In this document: in pieces, positions 5,276 through 51,151 of the stretch
How positions within the stretch are numbered: the first letter of the stretch is position 1
Layout of the letters: every line of letters starts with the position of its first letter
Source: Lycium barbarum
Lineage: Eukaryota > Streptophyta > Magnoliopsida > Solanales > Solanaceae
NCBI RefSeq assembly: GCF_019175385.1
Contig: NC_083341.1
Span: 24,374,203-24,438,202 of the forward strand
Length of the DNA stretch: 64,000 bases
Reading direction: 5' to 3'
Notes under the pieces: generated by a model
Seen by the model: the letters and a program-made list of their open reading frames with translations, nothing else
Told to the model about the DNA's origin: nothing
Database searches by the model: none
Position numbers and translations under genes: made by a program

Positions 5276-5333
5276 AGTACATATTTCGTACTGACCCCCC
5301 TTGCTTCGGGGGCTGCGTTTTTATGCCGCGCAG
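5276..5333 (+). other. Two-hairpin module in LTR A
   Basis: Stem 1 is AGTAC (5276-5280)/GTACT (5288-5292) with a 7-nt loop. Stem 2 is CCCCC (5296-5300)/GGGGG (5308-5312). Twenty-one bases later comes ATGCCGCGCAG|GT, ending at 5333, like a 3' splice site. The homologous modules in the other LTRs keep both stems, and stem 2 changes sequence while staying paired. Confidence 0.65.
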
Positions 5334-5739
5334 GTTCAGACGACAGGTTTGCCGATCCACACGTCTAGGATCTTACTACTGCTATTTTGGGGCGCTCTCT
5401 TCTTCAGAGCCCATCTTTTGGTACAGTTTGACACCTCTATCTGGATGTGTACATTATTCTGGGTATGACGGGGCCCTGTCCCGTCTTATGATTATGCTGG
5501 GTTCTGTAGAGGTCTGTGGATATATCTGTGTGGGTTCTGTACATACGTTTGGGGTATTTTGTTCTATGACGGCCTTCTCGGCCTATGTGTGCCAAGCCTA
5601 CCTTTCTGTTAATTTCTGTAGTATTCACTAATGTTATTATATTATTATTCTGTTAATTTGCTAATCTGGGTATCGGGTACGTATAGGTGCCCACCTAGGG
5701 CACCGGTCGCGGCCCACGGGGTTGGGTCGTGACAGTGAT

Positions 5740-6568
5740 CACTGATTTGTACTTATATGTTATGCAACTATTTATATGGACGTCGTATGCTGCTATATTA
5801 GATGGTTTGCCGGCCTTTTGCAAGGCAGATCAGGGGGTTTGGAGGTCGCGACGTCCATTGATACACTTGGACATCGTAGAGAACCACATGCCCAAGTGTG
5901 TCTTACGTTAGTTTGGGCATACACATAGTATACCCCCTGACATCCGTCATGAGCTCCGACACTACTAGCAGGATGATCGAGCTGCCGTTGATGATGATTT
6001 TCTGGCTTTCATGGCTGTCAAGTTCCACCGTTGGGGTAACAGGTTGGGTACTTTAGTGGTGGTCGGCCATTTGACTCCCGTTGAGGATTACATGCGTTGG
6101 TATCATCAGATCACACGCCGATTAATCGGCAACTCAGCTTTGTATCTCGCTAGGGAAGTAAAATACTCAGCACTCCCGGGGCAGTATGAGGCATTGGTAA
6201 GTTTATCGTATTTAGATTTATTTAATTGCATTAATTGTTACGTCTTAAAAAAATAATTTTTTTACTGTTGAACACAAATGCAGCTGGTGGTTGTACAACG
6301 ATTATGCATCTTGGGGTTAGAGCATATGCCTTACCCTGGGCTTGCGAGGCTTGCGTCAAAGATGGTACGAATATTCGAGGATGGTATCTGGCAGGCAGGA
6401 GAGATTAGGCGCATAGAGGAGCCTGCTCCGGAGGCTGAGTATCAAGCAGCGCCAAGAGGAGGATCGGGTGCTCCAGAAGAGGAGGTCGTGCAGGTGGAGG
6501 ATGCCATACTGCCAGAGGACGCCGTGCTGCTGCTAGAAGACCTGGTGGTGGAGTACACCATGTGGTAG
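5740..6568 (+). pseudogene. Plant-mobile-domain (PMD/MAIN-like) fragment with one intron
   Basis: Frame 2 reads as the C-terminal part of the plant aminotransferase-like/mobile domain found in MAIN-like proteins and in many MULE-type transposons. It contains a VENHMPKCVLR stretch, then FGHTHSIPPDIRHEL, W..R and Y.RWYHQ..RRLIGN motifs. Two in-frame TAG codons interrupt it, one at 5909-5911 where the family has glutamine and another near 5966. A phase-0 GT-AG intron (6197-6283, 87 bp) is placed after the GQYEAL-encoding stretch; exon 2 (from 6284) stays in the same frame to a TAG at 6566 with an acidic low-complexity tail. The frame is 5'-truncated near the gypsy LTR end. Family assignment is from memory of the motif pattern. 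It could be a captured gene piece or the remains of a MULE gene. Confidence 0.6.
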
Positions 6569-6629
6569 ATGAGGCCGATCCTATTCCAGAGGATGTTTCC
6601 GGTCTAGTCCATCCGTAGCCGTTTCAGGC

Positions 6630-6692
6630 CGGTGGCATCGCACGGGCATATAAACACGTGCGTCCCGTGCATCGCACGGGCATATATTGCTA

Positions 6693-6693
<1 letters not shown>
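6630..6693 (+). mobile_element. Helitron 3' terminus
   Basis: A GC-rich hairpin CCCGTGC-ATC-GCACGGG (6664-6680) is followed nine bases later by CTAG and then T (6690-6694), the Helitron 3' signature (hairpin, about 10 nt, CTRR|T). The stretch GCATCGCACGGGCATATA occurs twice (near 6637 and 6669), so the terminus is partly duplicated. The 5' TC end was not found; it may have been lost to the gypsy insertion on the left. Confidence 0.55.
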
Positions 6694-6697
<4 letters not shown>

Positions 6698-6750: not shown

Positions 6751-6751
<1 letters not shown>

Positions 6752-8019: not shown

Positions 8020-8642
8020 GTATAATAATCACCTATTAGTTCTTTAATCTAGAGAGTTAATTCTCCTCATCTGATCATCTATTTTGTTTGGTTTGTGAAA
8101 CTATATTTTTGGAAGGAAAAAAGTGAACATGTTAGTATTACTTCCCATGGCTCTTGACACTTGAGAAATTAACCGATTTTCCTGTACTTGAATTTTAAGA
8201 GTTTACCATAATTGACTTTTACTTTTTTTTTTTTAAAGAAATATATAAATTTTTTATATATATAGATGTCTAAAACATTTTTCTCCAAGAAAGGGGTAGC
8301 CAAATATGAAAGATTCATCTTCTTCTTTTAGGAAGAATAAAAAATCAATTATGGTAAACTCTTTATCCTTTCTACCAAAAATGATAAAATACAAATATTA
8401 TTAAAAAAAGAACTACATATCCTAACCTATCGAAATTGCAATAGATCACCTACTGCCGACTTTTTTTTTTCATGAATACTATTTTCAACTTCAAACTTGA
8501 ATAGAAATTTGAAGTTGAAAAATTGCTTTGAGAAATATTTCAGATGAAATATTGCTAAATCTTGGACTTTGAGGGATTGAATGATAGAGAAGTAGCACAC
8601 TGTTTTAGCGTCAATTTCAACTGAATTATTTCTAAGCTTTTT
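8020..8642. other. Intron 1 sequence of the reductase pseudogene, no element recognised
   Basis: AT-rich intronic sequence following the exon 1 donor. I see no gene or clear repeat boundary here. Confidence 0.5.
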
Positions 8643-9629: not shown

Positions 9630-10279
9630 TCTTTTTACATGATCAGGCAACATTGACGGACACTAGCCGGTTACCAGCCTATTTTCAGTTTTACTTTTCT
9701 TTTTTCTTTTTTTGATCACTGCCTCAGCCTAATTGGATGACCTGTATCCTAATCTTCTCTCTCCCCTAAGGTCAAAACAGATTCAAAGTTCAAAATAGAT
9801 TTAAAAAGTTTTGAACTCTAGAGGCTTAGTCGTTTCCATGCTAGAAGTTTGGATGTAATTCTAATGTTATTAAAAGAATCAAAATATTTGCTAGGAGAGA
9901 AATTATAGTTTAATCTTTTTTTAATGAGAAGAAATTTTTTTGTCATATGATGCAAACTTGATCTCTACTAGTCCTAAAAATTCTGATATAATTTTAATGG
10001 CTACTGAGTTCATCATATTAAACTTGTTAATTTCAAAAGTGAGATGAAATAATCTTTTAGCTTAATTGTCAGACTAAAAAATCGTTGGTGATTCCTTATG
10101 TTAGATTAGCTTATCTAAAAAGTGTTCTTTACTCTTACAATGAACAATGTAGATCAACCACCAAACTCCCTTATCGCTAATTATTAATCTGAAGGGAAAA
10201 AAACACTTAAGTATAAAGAGTTTCCGTATGCAACATAGCTTGGGATTTGCTTCAATGGTGTGTATATATATATATATAT

Positions 10280-11430
10280 ATATATGAGTCCGCAATTTAA
10301 ATGACTCAAAAAGTGACTGTAGGGACCAAAATAACTCAATAAAAAAAAAGTTACTAAAGTAACCTTTGCGCACTAAATTAGTGCGCAATAGGACCAAATT
10401 GCAAATTTAGAGTTAAGTCCTTTTGTGCACTAAATTAGTGCGCAATAGGGGTCTTTTTTTTTTTTTCAATTTTAATGTTTTGAAATTTCACGTTTTTTCC
10501 ATATTTTGACCAAAGTATGTTTCAAAATGCCGGAATATCAATATTTTATATAGAACGTGATATTTTTTTCTGCGAATAATAATATAGGCTCAATACATCA
10601 AGTATACGCAAACGTTTGGATCATCATTTTAAGGGTTGTAAAGTGCCCCGAAGTAAGTTTTGTTTATTTGGAAACTTGTTATTTTTAGGTTTAAGGGCTT
10701 GTTTGGTTAGAAAATAAGTTATCCCGGGATTGTTATTCCACCCTCAATGTAGGATAAAAAAAACACTATAATCCCGGGATTAATTATCCTGCGTTTTTGT
10801 TCCAACGAAACGTGGGATAAGGCGGCACTAAATTTTTATCCCATAACTATTTTTACTTATCTATCATACTAAATGAGCCCTAAGTGTTTTATCTATAATT
10901 AGTTTAGGATATCACGCGAGTTAGTTATATACGATAAGATAACAAAGAGTAGAATAATATTTATCATTAAGAAATAGATACGCAAAGGTATACTTAATTT
11001 TTAAAGAAGTAAAAGAAAACAAGTTTCCAAACAAACAAAACTTACTTCAGCGCACTTTACAACACCTAAAATGAGGATCCAAACATTTGCGTATACTTGA
11101 TGTAGTGAGCCTAAATTATTGTTCGCAGAAAAGATATCAGGTTCAATATAAAATATTGATATTTCGACGTTTTGAGACATGATTAATCTTTGGTCAAATT
11201 ATGAAAAAAAAAAAGAGAAATTTCAAAACTTTAAATTGAAAAAATAAAATAAAAAATACAACCCTATTGCGCACTAAATTAGTGTGCACTAGGACTTAAC
11301 TCTAAATTTGCAGATTGGTCCTATTGCGCACTAATTTAGTGCGCAAAAATTACTTTGGTAACTTTTTTTTATTGGATTATTTTGATCCCTACAACCACTT
11401 TTTGGGTCATTTAAATTGCGGATCCGTATA
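10280..11430. mobile_element. Large foldback element with about 400-bp inverted arms
   Basis: The left arm (about 10286-10690) and the right arm (about 11020-11427) are inverted copies of each other, starting from TCCGCAATTTAAATGAC on the left. Each arm carries two near-palindromes of the form GCGCACTAAATTAGTGCGC (left near 10367 and 10425; right near 11269 and 11326). A PIF/Harbinger-type MITE lies in the loop region. No coding capacity is seen. The target duplication could not be settled. Confidence 0.7.
10695..10880. mobile_element. PIF/Harbinger (Tourist-like) MITE
   Basis: The 186-bp element begins GGGCTTGTTTGGTTAG and ends ACTAAATGAGCCC, imperfect inverted repeats, with TAA on both sides (10692-10694 and 10881-10883). 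A 3-bp TAA duplication is characteristic of PIF/Harbinger MITEs. Two internal ATCCCGGGAT palindromes are present. It is nested in the foldback element. Confidence 0.7.
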
Positions 11431-11439
11431 TGTATTGCC

Positions 11440-16451: not shown

Positions 16452-19400
16452 TGTTATGTCCCGTATTTTTATACATTGGGACAACCCGGATTAACTATGA
16501 TAATTTAAGGCCAAGACCATTCCGGGATTTGAAGTCGGGACTTTTGACCCTTAATTTTATTTTGAGACATAAGTTATATATGAAATTGTTGGCATTGAAG
16601 ACTTAAGAAAATTTGGGACCAAAAGTGATATAATTGGAATTGAAAATCTTGCCAAATAAGGCATTGTGGCCGTGTGGATGGAAGTGGTCCCACACATTGT
16701 TGTGGCCAATTTTAATTGGTCCAACACATGTGTGGGCCCAAGGACACATGGAGCAAATTTTGTGGAACTTAAAAAGATGACTTTCAAGTCATCTTCCTTC
16801 ACTTTACACTTAGCAAAATATCAAGAATATTGAAGAGCCCCATCACCACCATTCTCGGCCAAGAAACCAAGAAAACCAAATCAAATTCAAGTCACCCAAA
16901 AATTATTTCTTTGGTACAAATCAACTATTTTGAGGTCCCTAAGTAGCGTGGAAGTGTTATTTGGATCATCCAACTATTCGTTGTGGCCATTTGCTAACCC
17001 AAACCCATTGTGGAGTTGAAGAGGAAAGGTGAGAATTTCTCTTGTTTTATGAGTTATAAATGTTGTATGCGTGTTGTAGTATGTTAATATGGATGGAAAT
17101 CATGAAATATTGTATGTTGGAAGTGGGTTGTGTGCTTGAGGAGCTAGCCGTGTATATGGGTGTTGAAAATGGAGTTGATGAGTTAATTCTTGTATCATGT
17201 TAAATTGTTGTAGTGTGTAGAGTGGCTAAGAATCACCATTATATGCTTGTGTAATGATAGATGAATATGGGTCATACTATATGCCAAAGGACACACTAAT
17301 GTCGCGTAACGTTTTAATGGTTGTTGTGATGACTTTTATATTGGAAATAAGAGTTTAATGTCCCAAATTGATATGGCAAGTGTTGCGGACTGATTTGGAG
17401 AACTCTGTGCAATTAATGCAATCTTTATCTATGAGAACCATCAACATATGTGTATGTGTAGTGTGGACGAATGTGGGTCATATAATATGTCGAAGATCGC
17501 ATTAATATCGCTTAGCGTTCTAATTGTCATCGCTATGAATTCTAGTTGGAAATGAGCATTTTAATGACTCAAGATTAATGTTGAGAGTGTGTGGGCTGAT
17601 TTGATGCTTGTTGTGCGTTTGACGTAATTTGTATATTTATAAAAATGATATCGTTATATTGTGGATTGTTGATGCAAATCATGAATCAAAATTGAGGAAT
17701 GTGAAAAGAGGGCTGTCCTCGGCCTAGGGATTGTTTTCGGCCAACTTGGAGAAAAAAATTATTGGATTGTTGGAAAAATTATGTGAATTGTTTAGAATGT
17801 CCTCTAATATTGTTGGTAAGGATTCGGGTTGATAATTGAATGTATGAGCTATATTGTGACTTGAATGTAAGCCGTCGAAACGAATATTTGGAAAGTTGTT
17901 GAATGATGTAAAAGAGAGTTGCTATTGTTATTTTGCCTTTCGAATTGATTATCGATGTTGCTAGGTTGGTTATTGTGGTTGTTGTTGTTGATTTTGAGCG
18001 AGTTAAATTCTCGGGTTGGCCTATTTACAGGGGAAATGCTGCCGAATTTTCTGTAGAATTTAGAGTTAGTTTGGAATAAATAATTGCTTAAGTGCCTATG
18101 GTTAATATCGGATATTCGTTGGCATATTTGTAAACCTTGGGGTTCCCGAGGCGTAAATTGGGATTAACTTTAGCTCGGCTAGCTTGGAGTGCGTACGAGG
18201 TATGTAAGGCAACCTTCTTTCTTTTGGCATGCCTTAGTTTACATAGGCTAGATTAGAGCCTTAAGGGAATTCCAAAATTCGAAATCCGAGCATGTTATGA
18301 TCCGTATATGTTCCTTGGCACTCTTATGTATGATTTGATGAAATATGAACCTTTATGTATTTGAAATAATCGCTCTCCGAACTTTGCGCAAAAAGGTTTC
18401 ACTTTAAAGAATTTCGTAATTTTTGAATGCCATATCTTTCACATAAAGGCTCGGATTGTTTTGATATTTTCGTATGAGTTTGCATGGCCTATGATGAGTA
18501 TGTTTTCCATAGGCAGGCCCGACTCGGGTAAATACCCGTCCGTGGGTCCCGCGACTTTCCTTTATGTAATTCGGAGAACTTTTGAAAGAATTTGATATGA
18601 CTATTATTTCGATGTACAAGTATGATCATTTTACTTATGTTCGAGTTTATGATAATGATTTTATGCATATGACTACTCACGACTCTACTCGTGCACTCTG
18701 TTATTCCTTTCGCCGAGTCCCGGGCCGGTTCTGTTGTCGTGCGCACTTTGATATACTCTGGAGTTATGCTGTGTCTATGGTTCACCGAGCTACTCGCCAA
18801 AGAGGGTCGGGTTCCACTCATATTTGCTGTTATGCGGTGTATGGTGTGTATGACGTTATGCTGTGTTATGATATGTGACGGGGATCCGGAGATTTGAAAC
18901 CTTTCTGGTGTTATGCTGTGTTATGGCGCCATCGACGGGCGGGCGACCATATTCTTCTGTACCCTATGCATGACTTACATATTTTTGAAGTAAACATTTT
19001 GATATGTTGGATTTGTACTTAATTCTGTACCACTATTTCGTTTATGCCTCAGATTTGTTTTGTATCTTCTGCTTTGCATACTCAGTACATATTTCGTACT
19101 GACCCCCGTTCTTCCGGGGTTGCGTTTCATGCCCGCAGGTACAGACGCACAGTTTGGTGATCCATCCGTTTAGGGCATCCTCTTCTGTTGTTGGGAGTGC
19201 TCTTCTCCTTTCAGAACATATCTTTTGGTATATATTTTTGTTCGCTATGTATGTATATATTCGTTCAGGGGTACGGCGGGGCCCTGTTCCGCCATATGTT
19301 CCGTTTGGTCTGTTTAGAGGTCTGTAGACGTATTTGTGGGTGTGTGTGCCTACTTCTGTACAGGTGTGTTTGTATGATCCCATTTGTTATGGAAGCCTCG

Positions 19401-22911: not shown

Positions 22912-22912
22912 T

Positions 22913-24304
22913 TGATGTGGCGTGATTTTACACCACAATCGATGCTTTTTAACTATAAGTTTTACTTGTTTTTAAGCAAGTCTATGTCATTTTACGTAGT
23001 TTTTGTCATGTTTCAGGTAATACGAGGTCCCTAGAGCCTAAGTGTGGAAAACAAGCAAAAAAGTTGCAAAACTGGAATCAACTGGAAGTTCTGGAAAAAA
23101 GCCGTGGAAAAATACTCTACGCGATCGCGCCCACGCGGGAATTGTACTCCACGCGATCGCGCCCACGCGGGAATTGTACTCCACGCGATCGCGCTGGAAT
23201 GTAACGCGATCGCGCCTACGCGCGTTGTTAATTCCACGCGGTCGCGCAGGATCTACACGCGATCGCGATTAAGGGAGCAGGGGAAGCTGACGTCATCCAC
23301 GCGATCGCGCATACACATGGCGCGATCGCGATGAAGGATTTTCGGCAATTTTCAACCAGAACTCGGATTTTGACGATGCCTTCCATCCCAGTTCATATAA
23401 ATAGAAAACTAGGGCAAAATATCAGATGATCTTTGGCACAACACACAAGTTCTTGGAGGCTAGGGTTCATCACCAACACCTTGGAAGAGAAGATTTGGAG
23501 ACACCAATGAGAAATTCTTTACCCATTTCTTCTACTCTTGCTATGTATTGAATATTTATGTGTGTAGTATTTCATTTCAATACTTGAATTTCGTTTATGG
23601 AAATATTCTTGATTAAAGTTTGGATTGAATCTCTTGTTTTGCTTATGTGTTGAATGATTTTATTCCTAATGAAGTGAGTTATTGTTTCTTTAATTAATCT
23701 CATTTTGAATGATTCTTAAGGGAGTAGCTAACCCTAAGACTTGCCCATTTATTTCGGTTTAAACTTGGAAGAGGCAAACTCGGGATTGGGAAAGATTAAT
23801 TAACAAGAATTTGGGGCGTTAACCCTCATCTAATGGAAATCGACCTAGGAATAGGCGACACCACTTGTAGCCATATTCGGGTGTTCTTAATGCTCCTAAT
23901 TGCTTTAGGGATATTCAATTAGGTAGTCTAGTTAGTCTTCGGAAGAAGCTAATTTAGAGTCATTATCCGAGGCTAAGTAATATAAACTCACCATTATTTG
24001 TAAATCATGAAGTACATTGGATCGTTACTTGAGCGTAGTTTCCCTTGTATCCATGCTTGTGGCCATTGATCATTTTACTTGCTTTCTAGGTTAGTTTACA
24101 TTTTTGCATTAGTTATAATTCTCTCAAACAAAACCAAAACATTATCTATCGTTTGGCTTTAGCGTAGTTGGTGAAAATTCCTACTTTTCCTAATCGCCTA
24201 CATATTGTTCTCTGTGGGATTCGACCCCGACTCATAGTTGGGTAAATTATATTTGCATACGACCGTGCCCATTCCAATTAATAGGGTGGATTTGGACGTT
24301 ATCA
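22913..24304 (+). repeat. 5' LTR of the non-autonomous element
   Basis: The 1392-bp LTR runs from TGATGTGGCGTG to GACGTTATCA, repeated nearly identically from 28867. A TATA-like CATATAAATAG lies near 23394-23404. A cluster of seven GCGATCGC octamers plus one GCGGTCGC variant spans 23119-23331. Confidence 0.9.
23119..23331. repeat. GCGATCGC palindrome cluster in the 5' LTR
   Basis: Seven exact GCGATCGC octamers (mostly as CGCGATCGCG) and one GCGGTCGC variant lie within about 210 bp, with GC-rich spacers in an otherwise AT-rich LTR. In translation they give repeated RDRA/AIA/TRSR peptides in three frames, which are artefacts of the palindrome. Confidence 0.95.
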
Positions 24305-24308
24305 AAAA

Positions 24309-24326
24309 TGGCGCCGTTGCCGGGGA
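24309..24326 (+). other. Primer binding site complementary to tRNA-Asp
   Basis: TGGCGCCGTTGCCGGGGA is complementary to the 3' end of plant tRNA-Asp including CCA. It starts 4 bases after the 5' LTR. This sets the plus orientation of the element. Confidence 0.85.
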
Positions 24327-24442
24327 ACAATTGGTGTATTTTGGCTAATCTAGGAAATAAGCTAACTTGCTTTGATCCGAACCCGTAAATATTTGTGTTG
24401 TTGTTTTCTGTGTTTTATTTTATATAAAAAAAAAAAAAAAAA

Positions 24443-24997
24443 ATGGCATCTTTCCATGAAAACTTGTTTAGTAATGACTTTTATTGTGAGCATGGCCAAA
24501 TTGGTGAGTTCAAATTCATGATGGAGTGTCTACTAGGTGAGGGTAATGAAAACCAAAAAGCTTTTGAAGAGTACTTGGAAACTAGTCTCCAACTTGGTTT
24601 GATGAAAGAAGAAGAAAATCCTCCACGGGCAAATCATTATGAACTACCCAATGCTCAAGATAAAAGGGTAAATCATGAAGATGAGTTTATTGGGAATGCC
24701 AAAGAAAAAAATGAATGGGAGTCAACCATTGTTCTGAACAATATGGTTGGTGTTGACCCCAATCCGGGGGAAAAAGAGGATGTCATAGTTCAAAAAGTTC
24801 AAGAGCCTTATATTCTGCAATTTGAAAATTCAACAAGGCAAAATGACATTCCTCACTTGAAAGCCAAGAAGCGTAGAATGAACAATATTTTACTTGGCGT
24901 GATCAGATATTTACCACCCCCCACTGCTCGTGGTCACAAACTTGATTCCAAGTTAGGTGCCCAATTCATAAGCTCCAAATGGCGAGAAAAGCGGTAA
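24443..24997 (+). CDS. Hypothetical protein of the non-autonomous element (184 aa)
   Basis: The frame starts at an ATG after a run of 15 or more A and encodes a charged, Glu/Asn/Lys-rich 184-aa protein without signal peptide or membrane segment. The C-terminus (RGHKLDSKLGAQFISSKWR) is basic. I do not recognise a domain. Just after its stop comes a GCGACGTTAA...GCGCTAGGTGGGAGGCAACCCA stretch, which in related gypsy elements lies downstream of pol. The frame may therefore be the fused remains of a larger gag-pol region after internal deletion. Its openness over 550 bp suggests recent origin or constraint. Confidence 0.45.
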   Translation: MASFHENLFSNDFYCEHGQIGEFKFMMECLLGEGNENQKAFEEYLETSLQLGLMKEEENPPRANHYELPNAQDKRVNHEDEFIGNAKEKNEWESTIVLNNMVGVDPNPGEKEDVIVQKVQEPYILQFENSTRQNDIPHLKAKKRRMNNILLGVIRYLPPPTARGHKLDSKLGAQFISSKWREKR

Positions 24998-24999
24998 AG

Positions 25000-26043
25000 T
25001 TGGTATCCGTCGTGCCGCGACGTTAACTTAAGCGCTAGGTGGGAGGCAACCCATCGTTTTTAAATTTTTTTTATCATTTTTGAAATTTGATTTTTTAGAA
25101 TTGTTTAGTTTATGATTTGTGACTAATCTGCAAAATTTCACAATTTTTGGAGTTGTTTTGAATAGGTGGATTTTTCAGAACAACCACAAATCAGTAGCTG
25201 CTGGTTTCTGTAATTTGTTAGACTGGTTTCTGTGCTTATTTTCTGAATCTGGAAAAATTTGGGCGAATTTTACTCTTCGCGATCGCGCCACATCACCACG
25301 CGATCGCGCAGAGGCGCGTTTTCAGTTTTCAAAACAGAGTAAAGAAAGGCAAAACGGTAGAAACCCATCATTTCCTTCACTTTTTCTCGAAAATTCTCTC
25401 AATTTTCTCTCAAATTCAACTTCAATTTTTAAGAAGAATTCTTCAACTTGCAACCACAAGGTATGTGATTCTTTCATTGTCTTGTTCCTAGGGTTGTTTT
25501 TATCATCTTTCCATGTTAGAAATTGTGAAAGAAAAATTTTCTTCCACTTGTTTAAGCATGAAAATGTGATGAAATTGCTGAATTTCTTGTCATGTGAAGT
25601 GTTGTTTGTTGTGAGTAATGTGAGTTGAGAGATGGGTGTTGATATGAAGAAAAAAATGGAGCAAAATACAAGCTTAAAATCGTTGAATTGAAGGCACAAA
25701 ATTGATGCCCATAACCTGTTTGTGAAAATGCTTCGCTGAATCTGAAACGATTCAGCGCGATCGCGGCCTGTACTGGCGCGATCGAGCTGAATAAATGGCT
25801 CAAATTGGGGCGATCGCGCCAGTTCCTTGCGCGATCGCGCTAAGGAATATCTCAAATTGGCGCGATCGCGCCTGGTTGCCACGCGATCGCGCTGAAGGAA
25901 AAATGGCAGTGCCCAAACAGAATGCTCGCGCAGAGCTGCTCAAAACTTGGGGGACCAATTTCCTTAACCCAACTCCTCATTATACATCATTGTAGGTGTT
26001 CATATGCATTGTGTTTGTTTTGTAGGTACTTAAACTTTAAAAA
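25000..26043. other. Interior spacer with GCGATCGC palindromes
   Basis: Between the two open frames. Two exact GCGATCGC octamers lie near 25280-25310, and five exact plus one variant (CGATCGAG) lie at 25754-25893. The open frames here are short, overlap on both strands and follow the palindromes, so I do not call genes. Confidence 0.7.
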
Positions 26044-28866: not shown

Positions 28867-31189
28867 TGATGTGGCGTGATTTTACACCACAATCGATGCT
28901 TTTTAACTATAAGTTTTACTTGTTTTTAAGCAAGTCTATGTCATTTTACGTAGTTTTTGTCATGTTTCAGGTAATACGAGGTCCCTAGAGCCTAAGTGTG
29001 GAAAACAAGCAAAAAAGTTGCAAAACTGGAATCAACTGGAAGTTCTGGAAAAGAGCCGTGGAAAAATACTCTACGCGATCGCGCAGAGTACCCACGCGAT
29101 CGCGCCCACGCGGGAATTGTACTCCACGCGATCGCGCTGGAATGTAACGCGATCGCGCCTACGCGCGTTGTTAATTCCACGCGGTCGCGCAGGATCTACA
29201 CGCGATCGCGATTAAGGGAGCAGGGGAAGCTGACGTCATCCACGCGATCGCGCATACACATGGCGCGATCGCGATGAAGGATTTTCGGCAATTTTCAACC
29301 AGAACTCGGATATTGACGATGCCTTCCATCCCAGTTCATATAAATAGAAAACTAGGGCAAAATATCAGATTATCTTTGGCACAACACACAAGTTCTTGGA
29401 GGCTAGGGTTCATCACCAACACCTTGGAAGAGAAGATTTGGAGACACCAATGAGAAATTCTTTACCCATTTCTTCTACTCTTGCTATGTATTGAATATTT
29501 ATGTGTGTAGTATTTCATTTCAATACTTGAATTTCGTTTATGGAAATATTCTTGATTAAAGTTTGGATTGAATCTCTTGTTTTGCTTATGTGTTGAATGA
29601 TTTTATTCCTAATGAAGAGAGTTATTGTTTCTTTAATTAATCTCATTTTGAATGATTCTTAAGGGAGTAGCTAACCCTAAGACTTGCCCATTTATTTCGG
29701 TTTAAACTTGGAAGAGGCAAACTCGGGATTGGGAAAGATTAATTAACAAGAATTTGGGGCGTTAACCCTCATCTAATGGAAATCGACCTAGGAATAGGCG
29801 ACACCACTTGTAGCCATATTCGGGTGTTCTTAATGCTCCTAATTGCTTTAGGGATATTCAATTAGGTAGTCTAGTTAGTCTTCGGAAGAAGCTAATTTAG
29901 AGTCATTATCCGAGGCTAAGTAATATAAACTCACCATTATTTGTAAATCATGAAGTACATTGGATCGTTACTTGAGCGTAGTTTCCCTTGTATCCATGCT
30001 TGTGGCCATTGATCATTTTACTTGCTTTCTAGGTCACGCGATCGCGCCCACGCGGGAATTGTACTCCACGCGATCGCGCTGGAATGTAACGCGATCGCGC
30101 CTACGCGCGTTGTTAATTCCACGCGGTCGCGCAGGATCTACACGCGATCGCGATTAAGGGAGCAGGGGAAGCTGACGTCATCCACGCGATCGCGCATACA
30201 CATGGCGCGATCGCGATGAAGGATTTTCGGCAATTTTCAACCAGAACTCGGATTTTGACGATGCCTTCCATCCCAGTTCATATAAATAGAAAACTAGGGC
30301 AAAATATCAGATGATCTTTGGCACAACACACAAGTTCTTGGAGGCTAGGGTTCATCACCAACACCTTGGAAGAGAAGATTTGGAGACACCAATGAGAAAT
30401 TCTTTACCCATTTCTTCTACTCTTGCTATGTATTGAATATTTATGTGTGTAGTATTTCATTTCAATACTTGAATTTCGTTTATGGAAATATTCTTGATTA
30501 AAGTTTGGATTGAATCTCTTGTTTTGCTTATGTGTTGAATGATTTTATTCCTAATGAAGTGAGTTATTGTTTCTTTAATTAATCTCATTTTGAATGATTC
30601 TTAAGGGAGTAGCTAACCCTAAGACTTGCCCATTTATTTCGGTTTAAACTTGGAAGAGGCAAACTCGGGATTGGGAAAGATTAATTAACAAGAATTTGGG
30701 GCGTTAACCCTCATCTAATGGAAATCGACCTAGGAATAGGCGACACCACTTGTAGCCATATTCGGGTGTTCTTAATGCTCCTAATTGCTTTAGGGATATT
30801 CAATTAGGTAGTCTAGTTAGTCTTCGGAAGAAGCTAATTTAGAGTCATTATCCGAGGCTAAGTAATATAAACTCACCATTATTTGTAAATCATGAAGTAC
30901 ATTGGATCGTTACTTGAGCGTAGTTTCCCTTGTATCCATGCTTGTGGCCATTGATCATTTTACTTGCTTTCTAGGTTAGTTTACATTTTTGCATTAGTTA
31001 TAATTCTCTCAAACAAAACCAAAACATTATCTATCGTTTGGCTTTAGCGTAGTTGGTGAAAATTCCTACTTTTCCTAATCGCCTACATATTGTTCTCTGT
31101 GGGATTCGACCCCGACTCATAGTTGGGTAAATTATATTTGCATACGACCGTGCCCATTCCTATTAATAGGGTGGATTTGGACGTTATCA
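28867..31189 (+). repeat. 3' LTR of the non-autonomous element, enlarged by a tandem duplication
   Basis: The region starts TGATGTGGCGTG after the G-rich tract and ends GACGTTATCA. It is 2323 bp against 1392 bp for the 5' LTR. The excess is a direct duplication: sequence from 29093 restarts at 30035 with a period of 942 bp. At the join, GCTTTCTAGGT (LTR tail) runs straight into CACGCGATCGCG (LTR middle). Both duplicate halves carry the palindrome cluster (seven and six exact octamers, each plus one GCGGTCGC). Confidence 0.9.
29093..30976 (+). repeat. 942-bp tandem duplication inside the 3' LTR
   Basis: Copy 1 is 29093-30034 and copy 2 is 30035-30976. The breakpoint falls at a GCGATCGC repeat. 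Copy 1 has at least three private changes (GGATATTG, GATTATC, GAAGAGAG) where copy 2 and the 5' LTR agree. Copy 1 therefore either mutated after the duplication or came from another LTR. Confidence 0.88.
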
Positions 31190-33451
31190 AAATATCTTGA
31201 GCCATTGACGGGAGATTTAGTCACTGCCCGATTTGCAGATTGTCGATTTGATGAAACAAATTTTCCACAATTAGGGGGAGAGAGAAAAGAAATCAAAAGA
31301 GAAATTGTGTGGAAAGTTCCATCACTATCTCATTTTGATCCACGTGCCCCCATATGTGAACAGGAGATCTAGAAGATCATTCACTTGCAAAAAATAGCAA
31401 ATCAAATGCCAGACGCATTTACTGATTTGAAAAGGATAACTAAGTCACATATCCCTGCAGAGAATGTGCCTATCCGAATTGATGTCCCAAAGGGAAAATC
31501 TACTAGTGTCATAGCCTCTGAATCTCATGCACGCCTGAAGCGTGGTAGGCCATTGGGTTCTAAGGATAAAAATCCTAGAAAAAGAAACACGAAAAATGAT
31601 CAAAATGACACTATGAAAGAATATCATGATGATATTCAAGATCTGACTAATCCTGATACTCCTGAAGATATTAGAGAACCCGAGACTTAAGTAAATAAAG
31701 AACTATCATTGAGTACTTCTGGTGATGGGATAAATTTGAATCGATCGAAGATTATGGTGGATAATGTTTTTGCATATAATGTTGCCCTAAATATTATGAA
31801 AGACATTGACGATCAGGAACCCCAATCTGTCGAAGAATGTCGACGAAGATATGATTGGCCAAAATGGCAAGAGGCAGTTCAATCAGAATTGAATTCACTT
31901 GCCAAACGTGAGGTTTTTGGACCTGTAGTCCAAACACCCAATGGTGTAAATCCCAATTGGCCATAAATGGGTTTTTGTGCGAAAAAGGAATGAGAGAAAT
32001 GAAATTGTGAGATACAAGGAACGCCTTGTTGCACAAGGATTCTCTCAACGACCCGGTATCGACTATGAAGAAACATATTCACCAGTTATGGATGACATAA
32101 CATTTCGATATCTCATCAGTTTAGCTGTACATGAAAACCTTGAAATACATCTGATGGATGTGGTTACAGCTTACCTTTATGGCTCACTTGATAATGAAGT
32201 CTATATGAAAATTCCTGAAGGATTTAAAATGCCTGAAGCAATTAACTCAAAGTCTCGGGAGATGTATTCAATCAGATTACAAAGATCGTTGTATGGTCTA
32301 AAACAATCAGGGCGCATGTGGTACAATCGCCTCAGTGAGTACTTGGTAAAAGAAGGTTATATAAATGATGTCATTTGTCCATGTGTTTTTATTAAGAAAG
32401 CAAAATCGGAGTTCGTTATAATCGTTGTTATGTTGATGACATAAACCTAATTGGAACTCCAGAAGAGCTCCAAAAGGCGATTGAATATTTAAAGAAAGAA
32501 TTTGAGATGAAAGATCTGGGAAAAGCAAAACTTTGTCTTGGTTTGCAGATTGAACATTTGACAGATGGGATCCTTATCCATCAATCTGCTTATACCGAAA
32601 AGGTTTTAAAAAGATTTTACATGGACAATGCGCATCCTTTAAGTACTCCAATGGTTGTTCGCTCACTTGAAGTGAGTAAAAATCCGTTCCGACCTCAAGA
32701 AGAAAATGAAGAGCTTCTTGGTCCTGAAGTACCATATCTTAGTGCAATTGGTGCACTTATGTATCTTGCTAACGCTATAAGACCTGACATAGCGTTCTCT
32801 GTTAATTTGCTAGCAAGATATAGCTCTTCTCCTACACGAAGACATTGGAACGGAGTTAAGCATATATTGCGATATCTGAAGGGAACTAGTGATATGGGTC
32901 TGTTTTATACTAACAAAGGTAGTACAGATCTTGTTGGTTATGCAGATGCAGGTTATTTATCTGATCCACATAAAGCTCAATCTCAAACAGGCTATCTGTT
33001 TACATGCGGAGGTACTGCTATATCATGGCGATCCACAAAGCAGTCCATTGTTGCTACTTCTTCGAATCATGCTGAGATAATAGCCATTCATGAAGCAAGT
33101 AGAGAATGTGTGTGGTTGAGATCAGTGATACATTTCATCAGAGAAAGATGTGGCTTGAAGTGTGATACAAAATTACCCACAGTATTATATGAAGATAATG
33201 CTGCATGCATAGCTCAATTAAAAGGAGGATTTATAAAAGGAGATAGAACGAAGCACATTTCACCAAAGTTATTTTTCACACATGATCTCCAGAAGAAAGG
33301 TGATATTGATGTGCAACAAATTCGTTCAAGTGACAATCCTGTAGATTTGTTCACCAAATCTTTGCCAACTTCAACTCTTGAGAAGATGATATTCAAGATT
33401 GGAATGCGAAGACTCCGACATCTGAATATTGGTCTTCGTCAGGGGGAGTGA
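31190..33451 (+). pseudogene. Copia 2 Pol: integrase tail, RT, RNase H
   Basis: Frame 2 opens with YLEPLTGDLVTARFADCRF and includes IANQMPDAFTDLKR, then RT with WVFVRKRNERNEIVRYKERL and LMDVVTAYLYGSLDNEVYMKIPEGF, the YVDD site (TAT at 32429) and RNase H with GYADAGYLSDP, EDNAACI and TKHISPKLFFTHDLQ. It ends at TGA 33449-33451. Breaks: TAG at 31370-31372 where glutamine is expected; TAA at 31688-31690; a 1-bp insertion near 31955 that shifts to frame 3; and a 1-bp deletion near 32427 right before YVDD that returns to frame 2. No active enzyme can be made. Confidence 0.87.
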
Positions 33452-42184: not shown

Positions 42185-42450
42185 TATAAGGGACCCTTTT
42201 CATTCATTTTCATTTCATTTCTCATCTACACAACTCAAGAGAACTCTAGAACACTCTAAACACTTCATTCACAAGAATTCAAGAGAACCAAAGGAAAATC
42301 AAGGTCAATAACATCAAATCCACGAAATCAAGTGTAAGGATCACATCAAAGTTCATCTACACCAAGAAATTGCAAAGGAAGTGAAATAGGGTTTTTGGTA
42401 TAGAAGGGTATTGCTACTCAAGGCTCGTTCCTACAACATCTAAGGTAAGT
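42185..42450 (+). promoter_or_regulatory. LTR promoter: TATA box and leader splice-donor-like site (element B)
   Basis: TATAAG at 42185-42190 and a TAAG|GTAAGT donor with the intron starting at 42445 are 260 bp apart, matching LTR A (259 bp). Confidence 0.5.
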
Positions 42451-43624
42451 TTGATGACCTTCTCATGATGATTGAAGTATTAAAACGTTGAAACACTTGG
42501 ATTATGGAAGAGTGTAGTAAATGGGTCATAAAATGTGAATAGTGCTATAATTGAATGATAGTTGGATTGAATTATGAATGTTGATGTGTTGTGAGTATAA
42601 AGATGTTATAAATGACGTGTAGACCATGAAATGGGTGTGATATATAAGAAAATGTGATGATGAGCAAAAACCCATAAATGTAGAGAAAATGGAGAAAAAT
42701 GGTGGGATGTGGTAGATGTAGATAAATGACGATTGTTGATACGATATTGTGAGTGTTGTTATCAATGTTTGGTAGTTGATATAGAATATGGAAAAGTAGT
42801 ATAACCAAAGGAAGTTCCGCCCAATTTTCCCTAGAAATAGTAGCGCGTTCTTATAGTCGATTAACTAATGTAAATGCGAATTCTCTTTTGAAGGTAGAAA
42901 CGCGATATCGAAGGAGAACAAGCGAACGATAGCTTAGTTAAACGTCAAAGGTATGTGAGGCTAGTCCCTTCTTTCTAATGGCATGAATCTTCTAGCATGA
43001 TTTTCCTTCCCCTTCATGAGTTCCAATATTCCGGAAAGCTAAAAGCCTATATCTATGAATGGCAAAATAAGATAAGAGATATGATATGAGGATCCTAAAA
43101 TGGCATGATGTTATTTATTGCTCACACTCACCCTATATGTTAGTTCCTTCAAGGTGAGGCAGAATGTCAATAATTGCTCCGTAATGAAACCGGGGGGATC
43201 ACGACCTTACGTCACCCCGATAAAGTAAAGTTGTTCATAAGCCTTTTGCATGTATTATGATAAGTATATTATGATGAGCATGCATGATGATGATATAACA
43301 CCGCACCTAGTTGGCCGGGCAGTCACCGCTAAGGCGGGCAGCTATATGATACACCATGGCCAAATGGAATGGGCAGACACCACTAGTGGGCGGCATGAGA
43401 TGGTACCCCGGACGCGGGAGGCCTGGATGCAGGCTAATGGTATGATTATCACACCGATCCGATATGGACGGGCAACTTATACATTGTGCATATATGATAT
43501 AATGACGAGTATGAGTAAGACATCATGACTTAATTCTTTATGCATGACCGTCAGACATAGATGTTCCATATTGATATTTCCATTATGTCATTGTTCTATT
43601 TCTTTGTTTATGCCTCTCATACTC

Positions 43625-43680
43625 AGTACAATGTTCGTACTGACGTCCGTTTTCTTTGGACGCTGTGATCATGCCCACAG
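43625..43680 (+). other. Two-hairpin module in 5' LTR B
   Basis: Stem 1 AGTAC (43625-43629)/GTACT (43637-43641). Stem 2 CGTCC (43644-43648)/GGACG (43658-43662). ATGCCCACAG ends at 43680. Stem 2 differs from LTR A and from the solo LTR but still pairs fully. Confidence 0.65.
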
Positions 43681-44079
43681 ATAGACAGGGAGGAGAGCTC
43701 GACCCAGACCAGCAGTAGCTGTCAGCCGATTGAAAGCACTCCTTTGTTCGGAGGTGCTTATGACGATTCTTTTGTGTAAATTCATGTATATGTATTTTTG
43801 GGCATGATGGCGTCTTATCCCGTCCTCATGCTTAGCACTCCGCGCAGTGTGGGTTAGATGGTCTCACGAGATACCATTATATGTATATATTATTTTGATA
43901 GCCGAGAGGCATATGTATATAAGAGTATTTATGTTTCCATATAAAATATGATTTTCCTACAATTTGAGTATAAAGCTGATAAAAGACCATTAAATGAGCA
44001 AGATGAGTAGTAGCACGAGTGGTGCTCGGTGGCTAGCCCCGGGTACCCGTCACGGCCCCTAGCTGGGTCGTGAAAAAAG

Positions 44080-44091
44080 TGGTATCAGAGC
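44080..44091 (+). other. Primer binding site for initiator tRNA-Met
   Basis: TGGTATCAGAGC lies 4 bases after the 5' LTR and is complementary to the 3' end of plant initiator tRNA-Met. Confidence 0.9.
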
Positions 44092-44280
44092 GGTTCAGTC
44101 CTAGGAAGTGTCTACGAGCCGTGTCTATTAGAGTCTTGTTTATGGTGTGTTGCGCACCACATCAATAAACAAGAGGCTACAGGGCATTTAGGAAAAATGA
44201 CCCTCCTTCTTCTCATGAGATCGTGCGATAGAGCCATGTTTAAGATTTTATCCTCCCTAATAGTGTGTTATGATTTCAGA

Positions 44281-47200
44281 ATGCCGCCAAAGGGAAAGGC
44301 TACAGCCGCCCAGAAGGGCAAGGCTACGACAAAGAGGCGGGTAGAAAGAGAACCTCCGATGAACATAGAAGAAGGCGAATCACATAATGAGGCCTTATCT
44401 AATACTTCATCTACCCCGCCTAATGTGGAAGAGCAAGAAGGAGCCCCAGCTCCAATTCCTCCACCGGTTGCTTCGGGTCAACAAGTGACCGAGGCCATTC
44501 AGTTATTGACACAATTGGTCGCCGCACAGGCACAACGACAAAGTGCGAGTTCGAGTGATCGGGCAGCAAGTACCAAAGCCCGTGATTTTATGAGCCTAAA
44601 TCCTTCGGAGTTTTTCGGGTCAAAGCCGGATGAAGACCCGCAAGGTTTCATAGATGAGGTACTGAGGACATTGAAGATTGTCCATGCCTCTGAAACTGAA
44701 TCCGTGGAGTTGGCATCTTATAGACTCCGGGATGTGGCTGTTTTGTGGTACAACAACTGGGTATTATCAAGAGGAGAGAATGCGCCTCCTCCGGTTTGGC
44801 AAGCATTCGTGGATGCATTTATTCGTCACTATTTTCCACCCGAGGTCTGCCGAGCTAGAGCGGATAGATTTCTAAATCTGAGGTAAGGGAATATGAGTGC
44901 CCGGGAGTATAGCATGCAATTTAATTCTTTGGCTAGATATGCCCCGGATATTGTGGCCGACATGGGAGATCGGGTACATAGATTTGTAAGTGGCCTAGGG
45001 CCACATTTATTCAGAGATTGTTTGACGGCTTCCTTGCAAGACGGGATGGATATTTTCCGAATACAGGCCCATGCTCAGAATTTAGAGGGGCGACAACAAC
45101 CACCAAGGAATGACCGCGATAACGAAAGAAGGCAAGGCAAGAGGGCGAGATCTATGGGAGCAGGCAGTGGTTATAGAGGGGGATCAAGGCAGACATATTT
45201 TGGTTACTCAGGCCAGTCGGTGACCAGTGCACCTCCTCGATTTACAGGTAAGAGATTTGATCGCTCCTTCCGCTCAGGACAGGGCCAGAGTTCGAGGACT
45301 CCAGATTCCCAGTTCAGGAAAGATTATAGCCAGAGGAGACCCCCAGTACCGCGATGCAGCCAGTGCGGTAGATTGCATTCCGGACAGTGTCGCCAGGGTT
45401 CGGACGCTTGCTATACTTGTGGCCAGGTTGGGCACATGATGAGAGATTGCCCGTCGATGAGTGGCAGAGTTAGAGTTCAACCTACAAGCTCAGCAGCTGG
45501 TTCTTCCTCATCCCGCCCGGCAGGACAGATTCCCCAGATGTCAGCAGGCCGAGGTAGAGGTAGAGGGGCAGCATCTACTTCAGGTGCCACTCAGCCCCGT
45601 GTATATGCTTTAGCCGGACGACAGGATCTTGAGTCCTCCCCGGATGTGGTCACAGGTACATTGTCGATATTCTCCCGTGATGTATATGCACTGATAGATT
45701 CAGGTTCTACTCTTTCTTATATTACTCCATATGTTGCGGGTTGTATTGGGGTGAAACCTGAGCCGATCAAACCATTTGAGGTGTCTACTCCGGTTGGTGA
45801 TCCCGTGATAGCAAGACAAGTGTATAAAGATTGTGTAGTTGTGATATGTGATCGCCAGACCACAGCTGATTTGATTGAGTTGGAAATGTTGGATTTCGAC
45901 GTAATTATGGGTATGGATTGGTTGGCCTCGTGCTATGCTAATGTTGATTGCCGATTGAAAGTGGTTCGATTTCGATTTCCGGGAGAGCCCGTGCTTGAAT
46001 GGAAGGGTAATACAGCATCTCCAAAGGGTAGGTTTATTTCCTACCTTAAGGCAAGGAAGATGATAGCCAAGGGTTATATTTATCATTTAGTTCGGGTTCA
46101 TGCTGCCGAGGCAAAGCCGCCAACTTTCCAATCAGTTCCAGTCGTGAATGAATTCCCAGATGTGTTTCCAGACGAACTTCCAGAACTTCCTCCAGAAAGG
46201 GAGATTGACTTCGCCATTGATGTGTTGCCGGACACCAAGCCTATTTCTATTCCTCCTTATCGAATGGCTCCGGCAGAATTAAAAGAGCTAAAGGCGCAGT
46301 TGAAACACTTGCTGGAAAAGGGGTTTATTAGACCCAGCTCATCACCGTGGGGAGCACCGGTCTTGTTTGTAAGAAAGAAAGACGGATCTCTACGAATGTG
46401 TATCGACTACAGACAATTGAATAAAGTTACGATAAAGAACAAATATCCTCTTCCGAGGATTGATGATTTATTTGATCAGCTACAGGGTGCCAAATGGTTT
46501 TCAAAAATAGATTTGAGATCGGGTTACCATCAGGTGAGAGTTAGAGAAGCGGATATTCCCAAGACGGCCTTCAGAACGAGATATGGTCACTATAAATTTC
46601 GAATGATGTCGTTTGGGTTGACTAATGCTCCGGCCATGTTTATGAATTTGATGAACAACGTATTTAGGCCTCTCTTGGACTTATTTGTGATAGTATTTAT
46701 TGACGATATTCTGGTGTATTTTCGCACGGAATCGGAACATGCAGATCATTTGCGAATTGTTCTTGGCATTCTTCGAACCCGAGAATTGTATGCGAAATTT
46801 TTGAAGTGCGAATTTTGGCTAAATTCTGTGACATTTTTGGGCCATATTATTTCAGATGATGGCATTTGAGTCGACACTCAGAAGATTGAAGCTGTGAGGA
46901 CTTGGCCAAGGCCTACAACGCCTACAGAAGTTCGTAGTTTTCTGGGGCTGGCAGGTTATTACAGAAGGTTCGTAGAGGGGTTCTCGTCTATTTCAGCCCC
47001 ATTGATGAAGCTAACCCAGAAGTCAGCAAAATTTCAGTGGAATGATGCTTGTGAACGCAGCTTCCAAGAGTTGAAAAACAGGTTGACCTCAGCTCCGATC
47101 TTAACACTTCCAGAAGGGTCAGATGGCTATGTGCTGTATTGTGACGCTTCCGGTGTCGGACTAGGGCGCGTATTGATGCAGCATGGTAAAGTTATTGCAT

Positions 47201-49073: not shown

Positions 49074-49279
49074 TAAGGTATGTATGTTTATTTTGATGCT
49101 TTTGGTCGTGTGTAGCCATAGATATGTCGATGTTGTGATGTAGCCCTGTGAGGCGATGATATTATGGGTTGTTGTGACAGGTTGATAGTGCCAAATTACA
49201 AGGGAAACTCTGGCGAAATTTTTCTAGAATCCCCGATGACTTAACATTCGAGGACGAATGTTCCAAAAGGGGGGAAGAA
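49074..49279 (+). other. 3' untranslated part with hairpin and polypurine tract (element B)
   Basis: After the pol end, a perfect stem ACATTCG/CGAATGT with loop AGGA (49244-49261) is followed by AAAAGGGGGGAAGAA (49265-49279), the polypurine tract, directly before the 3' LTR. The same order and the same stem-loop occur in element A. Confidence 0.8.
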
Positions 49280-51151
49280 TGTTACACCTCGAACATTTCT
49301 CCGTGAACGTACAACAAGTAGACCAACGAAGTGTATGAGTGTGCGATGTTTTACTAAGTAGGGAATGAATATTTATGAATTTTGGAAATGAGAAAGTTAC
49401 AGATCTGCACTTCGACCCCGTTGGTCGTAAAATAGAATACGACCCGTAAAGTAGTTTACGGACCGTAAACTGCCATCGTCCTTCAGCATTCCAAAAACTT
49501 CAAATTTCTGCCAATTGACGAAATGGATAAATACGACTCAGAATACGGACCGTAAAGTGAAATACGGCCCGTAAACTGTGTCCGTAAATCACCACGTCTC
49601 AGCCTGAGTTTCTGGTTTTGATATGCTTAAATACGGTCATGAAGGACGGACCGTAAACCAGAATACGGTCCGTAAACTGGGTTTACGACCACTGTGCATC
49701 CCGACTACTGTTCATAAAAATCAGATTTTGTGATTAATATAAGGGACCCTTTTCATTCATTTTCATTTCATTTCTCATCTACACAACTCAAGAGAACTCT
49801 AGAACACTCTAAACACTTCATTCACAAGAATTCAAGAGAACCAAAGGAAAATCAAGGTCAATAACATCAAATCCACGAAATCAAGTGTAAGGATCACATC
49901 AAAGTTCATCTACACCAAGAAATTACAAAGTAAGTGAAATAGGGTTTTTGGTATAGAAGGGTATTGCTACTCAAGGCTCGTTCCTACAACATCTAAGGTA
50001 AGTTTGATGACCTTCTCATGATGATTGAAGTATTAAAACGTTGAAACACTTGGATTATGGAAGAGTGTAGTAAATGGGTCATAAAATGTGAATAGTGCCA
50101 TAATTGAATGATAGTTAGATTGAATTATGAATGTTGATGTGTTGTGAGTATAAAGAGGTTATAAATGACGTGTATACCATGAAATGGGTGTGATATATAA
50201 GAAAATGTGATGATGAGAAAAAACCTATAAATGTAGAGAAATTGGAGAAAAATGGTGGGATGTGGTAGATGTAGATAAATGACGATTGTTGATACCATAT
50301 TGTGAGTGTTGTTATCAATGTTTGGAAGTTGATATAGAATATGGAAAAGTAATATAACACCGCACCTAGTTGGCCGGGCAGTCACCGCTAAGGCGGGCAG
50401 CTATATGATACACCATGGCCAAATGGAATGGGCAGACACCACTAGTGGGCGGCATGAGATGGTACCCCGGACGCGGGAGGCCTGGATGCAGGCTAATGGT
50501 ATGATTATCACACCGATCCGATATGGACGGGCAACTTATACATTGTGCATATATGATATAATGACGAGGATGAGTAAGACAGCATGACTTAATTCTTTAT
50601 GCATGACCATCAGACATAGATGTTCCATATTGATATTTCTATTATGTCATTGTTCTATTTCTTTGTTTATGCCTCTCATACTCAGTACAATGTTCGTACT
50701 GACGTCCGTTTTCTTTGGACGCTGTGATCATGCCCACAGGTAGACAGGGAGGAGAGCTCGACCCAGACCAGCAGTAGCTGTCAGCCAAGTGAAAGCACTC
50801 ATTTGTTCGGAGGTGATTATGACGATTCTTTTGTGTAAATTCATGTATATGTATTTTTTGGCATGACGGGGTCTTGTCCCGTCCTCATGCTTAGCACTCC
50901 AGTAGAGGCTCGTAGATGCGCAGTGTGGGTTAGATGGTCTCACGAGATGCCATTATATGTATATATTATTTTGATAGCCGAGAGGCATATGTATATAAAA
51001 GTATTTATGTTTCCATATAAAATATGATTTTTCTACAATTTGAGTATAAAACTGATAAAAGACCATTAAATGAGCAAGATGAGTAGTAGCACGAGTGGTG
51101 CTCGGTGGCTAGCCCCGGGTACCCGTCACGGCCCCTAGCTGGGTCGTGACA
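49280..51151 (+). repeat. 3' LTR of gypsy element B with 494-bp deletion
   Basis: The 1872-bp LTR runs from TGTTACACC to GTCGTGACA. Compared with the 5' LTR it lacks 494 bp. The missing block lies between two TATAAC hexamers (42800 and 43294 in the 5' LTR), and one TATAAC remains at the join near 50353. It also has 17 extra bases near 50903 that the 5' LTR lacks. The second copy of the hairpin module is at 50684-50739. Confidence 0.93.

Follow-up and report, generated by a model that had tools for sequence, protein, structure and literature searches.

A row of small hairpins recurs in the long terminal repeats (LTRs) of Ty3/gypsy retrotransposons in a 64,000-nt stretch of the Lycium barbarum genome (NC_083341.1, positions 24,374,203 to 24,438,202 of the forward strand), here called the window. 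We propose, with a probability of about 0.72, that this row forms the folded region around the branch site and 3' splice site of a predicted leader intron, located inside the LTR of Tekay-like chromoviruses. The observations behind this proposal are the hairpins with their conservation and covariation, splice-like signals around them, a pattern of ATG words, and an acceptor word at gag.

Conservation of the hairpin row

The window holds four copies of the row, one in LTR A, one in a solo LTR and one in each LTR of element B. The original prediction had described them as a two-hairpin module, and reading of the sequence located all four copies with both stems at the claimed positions. Stem 1 (AGTAC/GTACT) is present at all four sites but is really 7 bp long (TCAGTAC/GTACTGA), and its 7-nt loop, described as variable, differs in element B and is identical in LTR A and the solo LTR. 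A third hairpin directly behind stem 2 had been overlooked. The letters ATGCC..CAG, described as following 16 to 21 bases later, are this hairpin (H3), with ATGCC in the loop and CAG in the 3' arm; its arms are CTGCG/CGCAG in LTR A, TTGCG/CGCAG in the solo LTR and CTGTG/CACAG in element B. Folding each copy alone yielded three adjacent hairpins (H1, H2 and H3) with z scores of -3.1 to -4.0 relative to dinucleotide shuffles, and for each copy in the window 0 or 1 of 200 shuffles folded as well as the three-hairpin module. With zero mismatches allowed, the four sites are the only matches of the stem 1 pattern in the window; with up to three mismatches there are 15, which is not beyond chance. 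Scanning with Rfam 15 gave no match above the gathering score in the window and none up to E 1 in 50500-51200.

In the 1.67-Gb host genome the forward strand contains 88,293 matches to the stem 1 pattern, compared with 13 to a reversed-letter control. Two further sets of copies were collected. The C1 sample consists of 40 sites picked by exact stem 1 alone in the first 5 Mb of C1, and 39 of them hold all three hairpin segments, some with mismatches, the remaining one being truncated. The blind sample covers 20 stretches of 10 kb from C1-C3, in which an nhmmer profile begun from 15 seeds found 20 copies (one cut short). The module set comprised 91 rows; two truncated copies and one with a long G run were dropped, and the remaining 88 gave 61 unique modules. 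For structure prediction a discovery alignment of 240 nt was built from 19 of the 22 full copies, leaving out two near-duplicates and one copy without H5 (L039:5541), and a second sample was made from 39 of the 40 C1 copies (without the truncated L117), 38 of them unique. The covariation set of 60 copies, from which L118 was also removed and in which L039:5541 was kept, contained 59 unique sequences.

RNAalifold, run without a given structure on the 19 discovery copies, returned five hairpins, H1 to H5, and nothing else, with both-sided changes in 6 of the 27 pairs. The second sample of 38 gave the same five hairpins and a weak closing helix of 3 bp. H4 follows the end of H3 after about 50-70 nt and H5 after about 125-145 nt, the latter being missing or gapped in 12 of the 38 copies. 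One subfamily (L104, L105, L107, L108, L127 and L128) is without the usual H5, and by eye some of its members show a GGCT..AGCC hairpin at a similar place. On the structure as named by hand 93.6% of the cells are paired, compared with 37-46% when the partners are slid, and 33 cells are changed on both sides against 13.7 in shuffles.

Covariation was assessed against a null that preserves the tree along with how often each column changes, the tree being built from the same alignment. For the 59 copies the p-values are 0.002 for H2, 0.007 for H5, 0.076 for H3 (0.002 for its pair 4) and 0.001 for all stems; an earlier run on 61 modules had given 0.002 for H2, 0.15 for H3 and 0.01 for pair 4 of H3. 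The covariation suggested for stem 2 is therefore significant under a tree-based null, whereas stem 1 shows none, and the test covers copies of a single genome. H1 shows hardly any variation, and stem 1 was the criterion by which the C1 rows were chosen, so that H1 is silent on pairing either way. Within the window itself the compensatory changes from C-G to G-C and from C-G to T-A between A and B are clear, but CCCCG/CGGGG of the solo LTR is a register shift of CCCCC/GGGGG. Independent events are also fewer there than had been assumed, because the two B copies belong to one element, which leaves three families. The selected RNA structure that had been postulated is supported by the recurrence of the same hairpins in two samples and by the p-values of stem 2 and of all stems, and a conserved RNA structure under selection is likely.

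The covariation rests on few clade-level events, one or two for H2, and common descent, CpG decay and a small number of families could produce an appearance of covariation with no selected structure behind it. The H3 change from CTGCG/CGCAG to CTGTG/CACAG is CpG on both sides and could be two CpG decays, H4 reaches only p=0.29, and the tree comes from the alignment that it is used to judge. We consider this explanation very unlikely nevertheless, as the overall p-value remains 0.001 under the null that keeps the relatedness, CpG decay does not account for the H2 change from C-G to G-C, and the second sample refolds into the same hairpins. Another possibility is that stem 1 and its neighbours are DNA palindromes for a host factor that recognizes GTAC-core motifs, the pairing being a by-product. 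This would fit the near invariance of stem 1, its lack of covariation and the constancy of its loop, 7 nt long in 23 of the 24 copies from the window and the blind sample. However, in H2 and H5 the letters change while the pairing holds, for which a DNA site has no need, and a TATA-like box (found by eye) precedes the module of A and B by 0.9-2.2 kb, so that we regard such palindromes as most improbable.

In domain profiles element A has the order RVT_1, RT_RNaseH, H2C2 and rve, which is the Ty3 gene order of reverse transcriptase, RNase H and integrase. The rve match (32.2 bits) is just below the cut-off of 32.6, Chromo PF00385 is near-threshold (E 4e-5, 23.9 bits, cut-off 25.1) and SH3_Tf2-1 is strong. 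The elements thus look chromovirus-like (Ty3/gypsy), with reverse transcriptase, RNase H, integrase and a near-threshold chromodomain, and we call them Tekay-like, a provisional clade name that goes back to the original prediction. The stem 1 and primer-site patterns and a piece of the integrase had no match in viral contigs, and neither had one pattern searched in prokaryote contigs nor one plasmid search. Two LTR frames used as protein queries had 3 and 1 public matches, respectively; the first three fit the module by eye, and all four were kept out of the covariation analysis because the third codon base is not known from a protein.

Splice-like signals and the distribution of ATG

Plant branch sites follow the consensus CTRAY and lie 18-50 nt before the AG of the acceptor. 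At the end of H1 the word TACTGAC is kept in 19 of the 24 copies from the window and the blind sample, and of the five without it two (CTAAC, CTGAT) also fit CTRAY; the C1 copies are useless for this count because they were picked by stem 1. From this putative branch site to the CAG at the 3' end of H3 the distance is 35-39 nt, about 37. The 3' end of H3 reads CAG in 56 and CAGGT in 54 of the 61 unique modules. An AG in the zone between branch site and CAG is found in 6 of the 61 modules, whereas 2000 shuffles gave 28.6 on average and never fewer than 16; these are not 61 independent tests, however, because the copies are related. The bases after the GT vary (GTAC, GTAG, GTGC, GTTC); CAG/GT was therefore ruled out as a donor and is read as an acceptor. 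A transcription start at the module was likewise rejected in view of the TATA-like boxes 0.9-2.2 kb upstream in A and B; a strict TATA scan found no box in most copies.

Most copies carry a candidate donor AG/GTATGTRARG 0.5-1.3 kb upstream of the module. The donor word AGGTATGTRARG was found in 18 of the 22 copies with 850 nt of upstream sequence, a count that left out L044 as having too little upstream; two of these 18, both in L039, have one donor in common. On the minus strand of L039 the two modules, at 8426 and 7896, are 530 nt apart, which may point to a nested LTR or one duplicated in part. Among 20 other copies 13 have the exact word and 15 have it with at most one mismatch, the rate in shuffles being 0.00075 per copy. 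The predicted intron from this donor to the acceptor in H3 (intron 2) would be 537 to 1088 nt long in the 16 distinct donors with a clear acceptor. The 15 bases round the donor are 0.94 conserved compared with 0.5-0.6 in the flanks; most of those bases are part of the search word, but the C at +10, which lies outside it, is invariant. Further, GGCAT stands 27-32 nt into the predicted intron in 15 of the 16 distinct donors (L044 is without it) and in 13 of 15 others. This word is the exact complement of the H3 loop ATGCC. Covariation is blind to such a pairing because both partners are nearly invariant; by our own estimate from the letters alone, which is not a computed value, the match would arise by chance in about one of a hundred cases. 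As in U2-type introns, a GT donor and an AG acceptor with consensus flanks are found together with a typical branch distance that rarely has an AG in between.

The stretches outside the predicted introns should be poor in ATG because they would form a leader. Expected ATG counts were taken from base composition, each donor was counted once, and the splice words, rather than ATG, defined the exon limits. The 230 nt before donor 1 contain 10 ATG where 43.3 are expected (12 copies), the 60 nt before donor 2 contain 5 instead of 22.5 (17 copies; the depletion ends at -60), and the 75 nt past the acceptor contain 3 instead of 23.1 (20 copies). Predicted intron 2 has 657 instead of 245.9 (16 copies). 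Of the six words that A, T and G can form, ATG ranks lowest in all three predicted exon stretches, with the rest at 0.55 to 1.52 of the expectation. It is the highest word (2.67) in predicted intron 2, but TGA (1.73) and GAT (1.48) are also high there, and GTATGT and GGCATG themselves include ATG, which slightly raises the count. The other sample shows the same pattern, with 0 ATG instead of 18.0 in the 60 nt before the donor (12 copies) and 518 instead of 217.8 in the intron (13 copies). Past the acceptor the validation copies have 15 ATG in 75 nt where 36.8 are expected, and one subfamily has an ATG at +10 to +13. Beyond +100 ATG climbs to at least twice the expectation in 7 of 10 bins.

A further acceptor-like word, TTTNCAG, stands 1-3 nt ahead of the gag ATG (ATGCC) in 10 of the 13 copies anchored by their primer binding site, five of these 10 being one family; in the remaining three no TTTNCAG precedes gag. 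The ATG behind this word opens a frame of 1599 codons in L043; the A family and B have another in-frame ATG upstream of it. In these counts, in the conservation round the donor and in the T content given below, one L039 donor was counted twice.

The predicted leader introns and other explanations

Put together, these signals suggest the following course. Transcription would start just after the TATA-like box early in the LTR and give a leader with at least one intron, whose donor would be AG/GTATGT and whose acceptor would be the CAG/GT at the end of H3. Two more introns are probable, one with an earlier donor AAG/GTAAG and a last one with the TTTNCAG acceptor 1-3 nt before the gag ATG. Splicing would strip many upstream ATGs and leave that of gag the first. 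The last splice would also take out the primer binding site, so that the gag mRNA could not be reverse transcribed, and the RNA left unspliced would serve as the genome. How well the acceptor is used would depend on the hairpins, with the branch site paired in H1 and the CAG paired in H3; H2 would expose a T-rich loop and take up the spacer, and H3 would offer ATGCC, which could pair with the GGCAT 30 nt behind the donor. By hiding the branch site in H1 and the CAG in H3, the row would prevent splicing from going to completion. Splicing itself, the order of the introns, its regulation and the pairing of loop and donor region are what we infer from these signals.

A more specific version, which we hold only tentatively, is an RNA switch on the splice acceptor. 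Here the fold of H1 to H3 would hide branch site and AG and mark the genome, while the alternative pairing of ATGCC with GGCAT would join the intron ends, and splicing would then destroy the row and remove the primer site. If this is true, a single structure decides between mRNA and genome in roughly 10^5 LTR copies of this one plant genome.

Several points weigh against a leader intron. The case for splicing is built from DNA sequence alone, and the positions of donor 3 and acceptor 1 are not fixed. The donor word is absent from 4 of the 22 and 5 of the 20 copies, and 10 of 37 validation copies and 3 of 21 discovery copies have an ATG in the first 45 nt past the acceptor. Predicted intron 2 is no richer in U than the sequence behind it, its T content being 33.1% against 28.6% before and 35.2% after it. 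In element B the acceptor of the 5' LTR reads CAG/AT and the 3' LTR is without donor 2; a stretch of about 494 bp between TATAAC repeats is present in the 5' LTR (42805-43293) and missing from the 3' LTR (50352-50358), and it is this stretch that holds the donor of predicted intron 2. Two spliced-junction patterns had 0 copies genome-wide, which we take as neutral, given that the primer site would be lost with the last predicted splice, but which fits an absence of splicing as well. As to structure, neither H1 (p=0.99) nor H4 covaries significantly under the tree null for 59 copies, and two of five pairing measures are not above shuffles (7 pairs with a double change against 5.8, and 25 further pair types against 24.0). 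H5 alone is not beyond shuffles in three window copies (z -1.5 in A, -0.24 in the solo LTR and -1.1 in the B 3' LTR). Moreover, H4 and H5 lie outside intron 2 and are unexplained by its splicing; they may serve the next donor or packaging.

A different view is that the row may mainly serve the genomic RNA as a signal for packaging, dimer formation or export, in which case the splice-like words would be secondary. H4 and H5 lie 50-145 nt beyond the predicted acceptor and H5 covaries, GGGCCC is found within H5 of the A-type copies, and only the unspliced RNA would retain the whole row, as a mark of the genome should. Such a signal leaves the donor, the branch site, the exclusion of AG, the ATG pattern and the gag acceptor unexplained, and 11 of the 59 copies have no letters at the outer pair of H5. 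We therefore think it unlikely as the main role. Of packaging, splicing and poly(A) control, which the original prediction had listed as functions, splicing now has most evidence; packaging also keeps a place, and both roles may go together.

A leader intron with a structured acceptor would have parallels in other reverse-transcribing systems. Retroviral leaders carry small hairpins beside splice signals, with the major splice donor within the hairpin row, whereas here it is the predicted acceptor that lies in the row, and inside the LTR. The leader of Cauliflower mosaic virus forms one large hairpin, unlike the row of small ones here, and the virus is not an LTR element. It is similar in being a reverse-transcribing plant virus whose 35S RNA has splice donors and an acceptor in the 5' region (excerpts of PMC4498817) and in its highly structured 5' leader (excerpts of PMC12786077). 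Among plant LTR elements, which are generally without introns, exceptions include Ogre (Ty3/gypsy) and EVADE (Ty1/copia), both with functional introns; these make subgenomic RNAs, and an LTR leader intron is not mentioned in the same excerpts (PMC12786077). A further parallel to our proposal is BARE1 of barley (Ty1/copia), in which part of the RNA is spliced, favouring Gag, and the unspliced part is kept for copying; this intron of 104 nt lies at the end of gag, not in an LTR leader, and no hairpin array is mentioned in the excerpts of PMC3735527. The LTRs of plant Metaviridae could not be modelled in an earlier study, for which length variation was blamed (excerpts of PMC3601003), and a word search for splic, intron, hairpin and untranslated had no hit in a paper on plant centromeric retrotransposons (PMC3059260). 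Among the matches listed in a search of titles and beginnings of abstracts, which included few subscription papers, there was no description of the module or of an LTR leader intron in a plant Ty3 element. The letters of the module, sought in print in paper texts, gave no paper on LTRs judging by the titles of the matches.

How LTR retrotransposons apportion a single RNA to translation and to copying is still an open question. If the leader intron is real, a very abundant element group of this genome has introns within the LTR and a conserved, structured acceptor, which would help to explain the long LTRs and would make their intronless annotation wrong; it also provides splice junctions that are testable in existing RNA data. 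Tens of thousands of LTR copies with splice sites would also form a large exonisation reservoir near host genes.

Feature coordinates and neighbouring repeats

Table 1. Features of the hairpin row and predicted splice signals in the window.
Feature	Position in window	Strand	Basis
Predicted donor 1 of LTR A, AAAG/GTAAGAATTT; TATA-like site 3056-3060 upstream (by eye)	3315..3324	+	sequence
Predicted intron 2 of LTR A, donor AAAG/GTATGTAAAG to CAG; GGCATG 4294-4299	4265..5333	+	splice words
H1 of LTR A, TCAGTAC-N7-GTACTGA	5274..5294	+	sequence, fold
Predicted branch site TACTGAC in 3' arm of H1, LTR A; branch A 5294	5289-5295	+	role from plant consensus
H2 of LTR A, CCCCC/GGGGG	5295..5312	+	sequence, fold, covariation
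H3 of LTR A, ATGCC loop, 3' arm ending CAG; predicted 3' splice site 5333/5334	5313..5333	+	sequence, fold
H4 of LTR A, GCTCT/AGAGC	5394..5410	+	sequence, family alignment
H5 of LTR A, GACGGG/CCCGTC	5467..5485	+	family alignment, covariation
Predicted intron 2 of solo LTR; GGCATG 18226-18231	18200..19138	+	splice words
H1-H3 of solo LTR; predicted branch A 19102; predicted 3' splice site 19138/19139	19082..19138	+	sequence, fold
H5 of solo LTR, GGCGG/CCGCC	19275..19293	+	sequence
TATA-like site (by eye) and predicted ATG-free exon 1, element B 5' LTR, ending at donor CTAAG/GTAAGTTT	42185..42444	+	sequence
Predicted intron 2, element B 5' LTR; GGCATG 42980-42985	42951..43680	+	splice words
H1-H3 of element B 5' LTR; predicted branch A 43643; acceptor CAG/AT	43623..43680	+	sequence, fold
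H4 of element B 5' LTR, AAGCACTCC/GGAGGTGCTT	43734..43759	+	sequence, fold
H5 of element B 5' LTR, partly decayed	43806..43824	+	sequence
Presumed primer binding site of element B, TGGTATCAGAGC	44080..44091	+	sequence
Predicted last 3' splice site TGATTTCAG/A, directly before gag ATG 44281	44260..44283	+	sequence
H1-H3 of element B 3' LTR; intron 2 donor gone	50682..50739	+	sequence, fold
H5 of element B 3' LTR, GACGGG/CCCGTC	50865..50883	+	sequence

LTRs of family A stand on C5 at 24363070, 24371274 and 24379478 (the last being window position 5276), each 8204 bp from the next, which looks like a tandem arrangement of LTR, internal part, LTR, internal part and LTR. A similar LTR triple is found on C1 (74773762, 74781979 and 74790196), and C2-C4, C7 and C14 have LTR pairs at distances of 8.2-8.6 kb. 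At C1 1774817-1793777 five stem 1 sites follow each other with an even spacing of 4.74 kb, probably as a tandem array of an element.

Other repeats of the window include a unit of at least 942 bp at 23150, 29093 and 30035 (98.7-99.9% identity, within 22912-31192), with a repeated CGCGATCGCG word nearby. Foldbacks with long inverted arms are present at 10276-11435 (about 85% identity) and 52770-53692 (about 83%), and a unit of about 116 bp stands in three tandem copies at 58260-58604.

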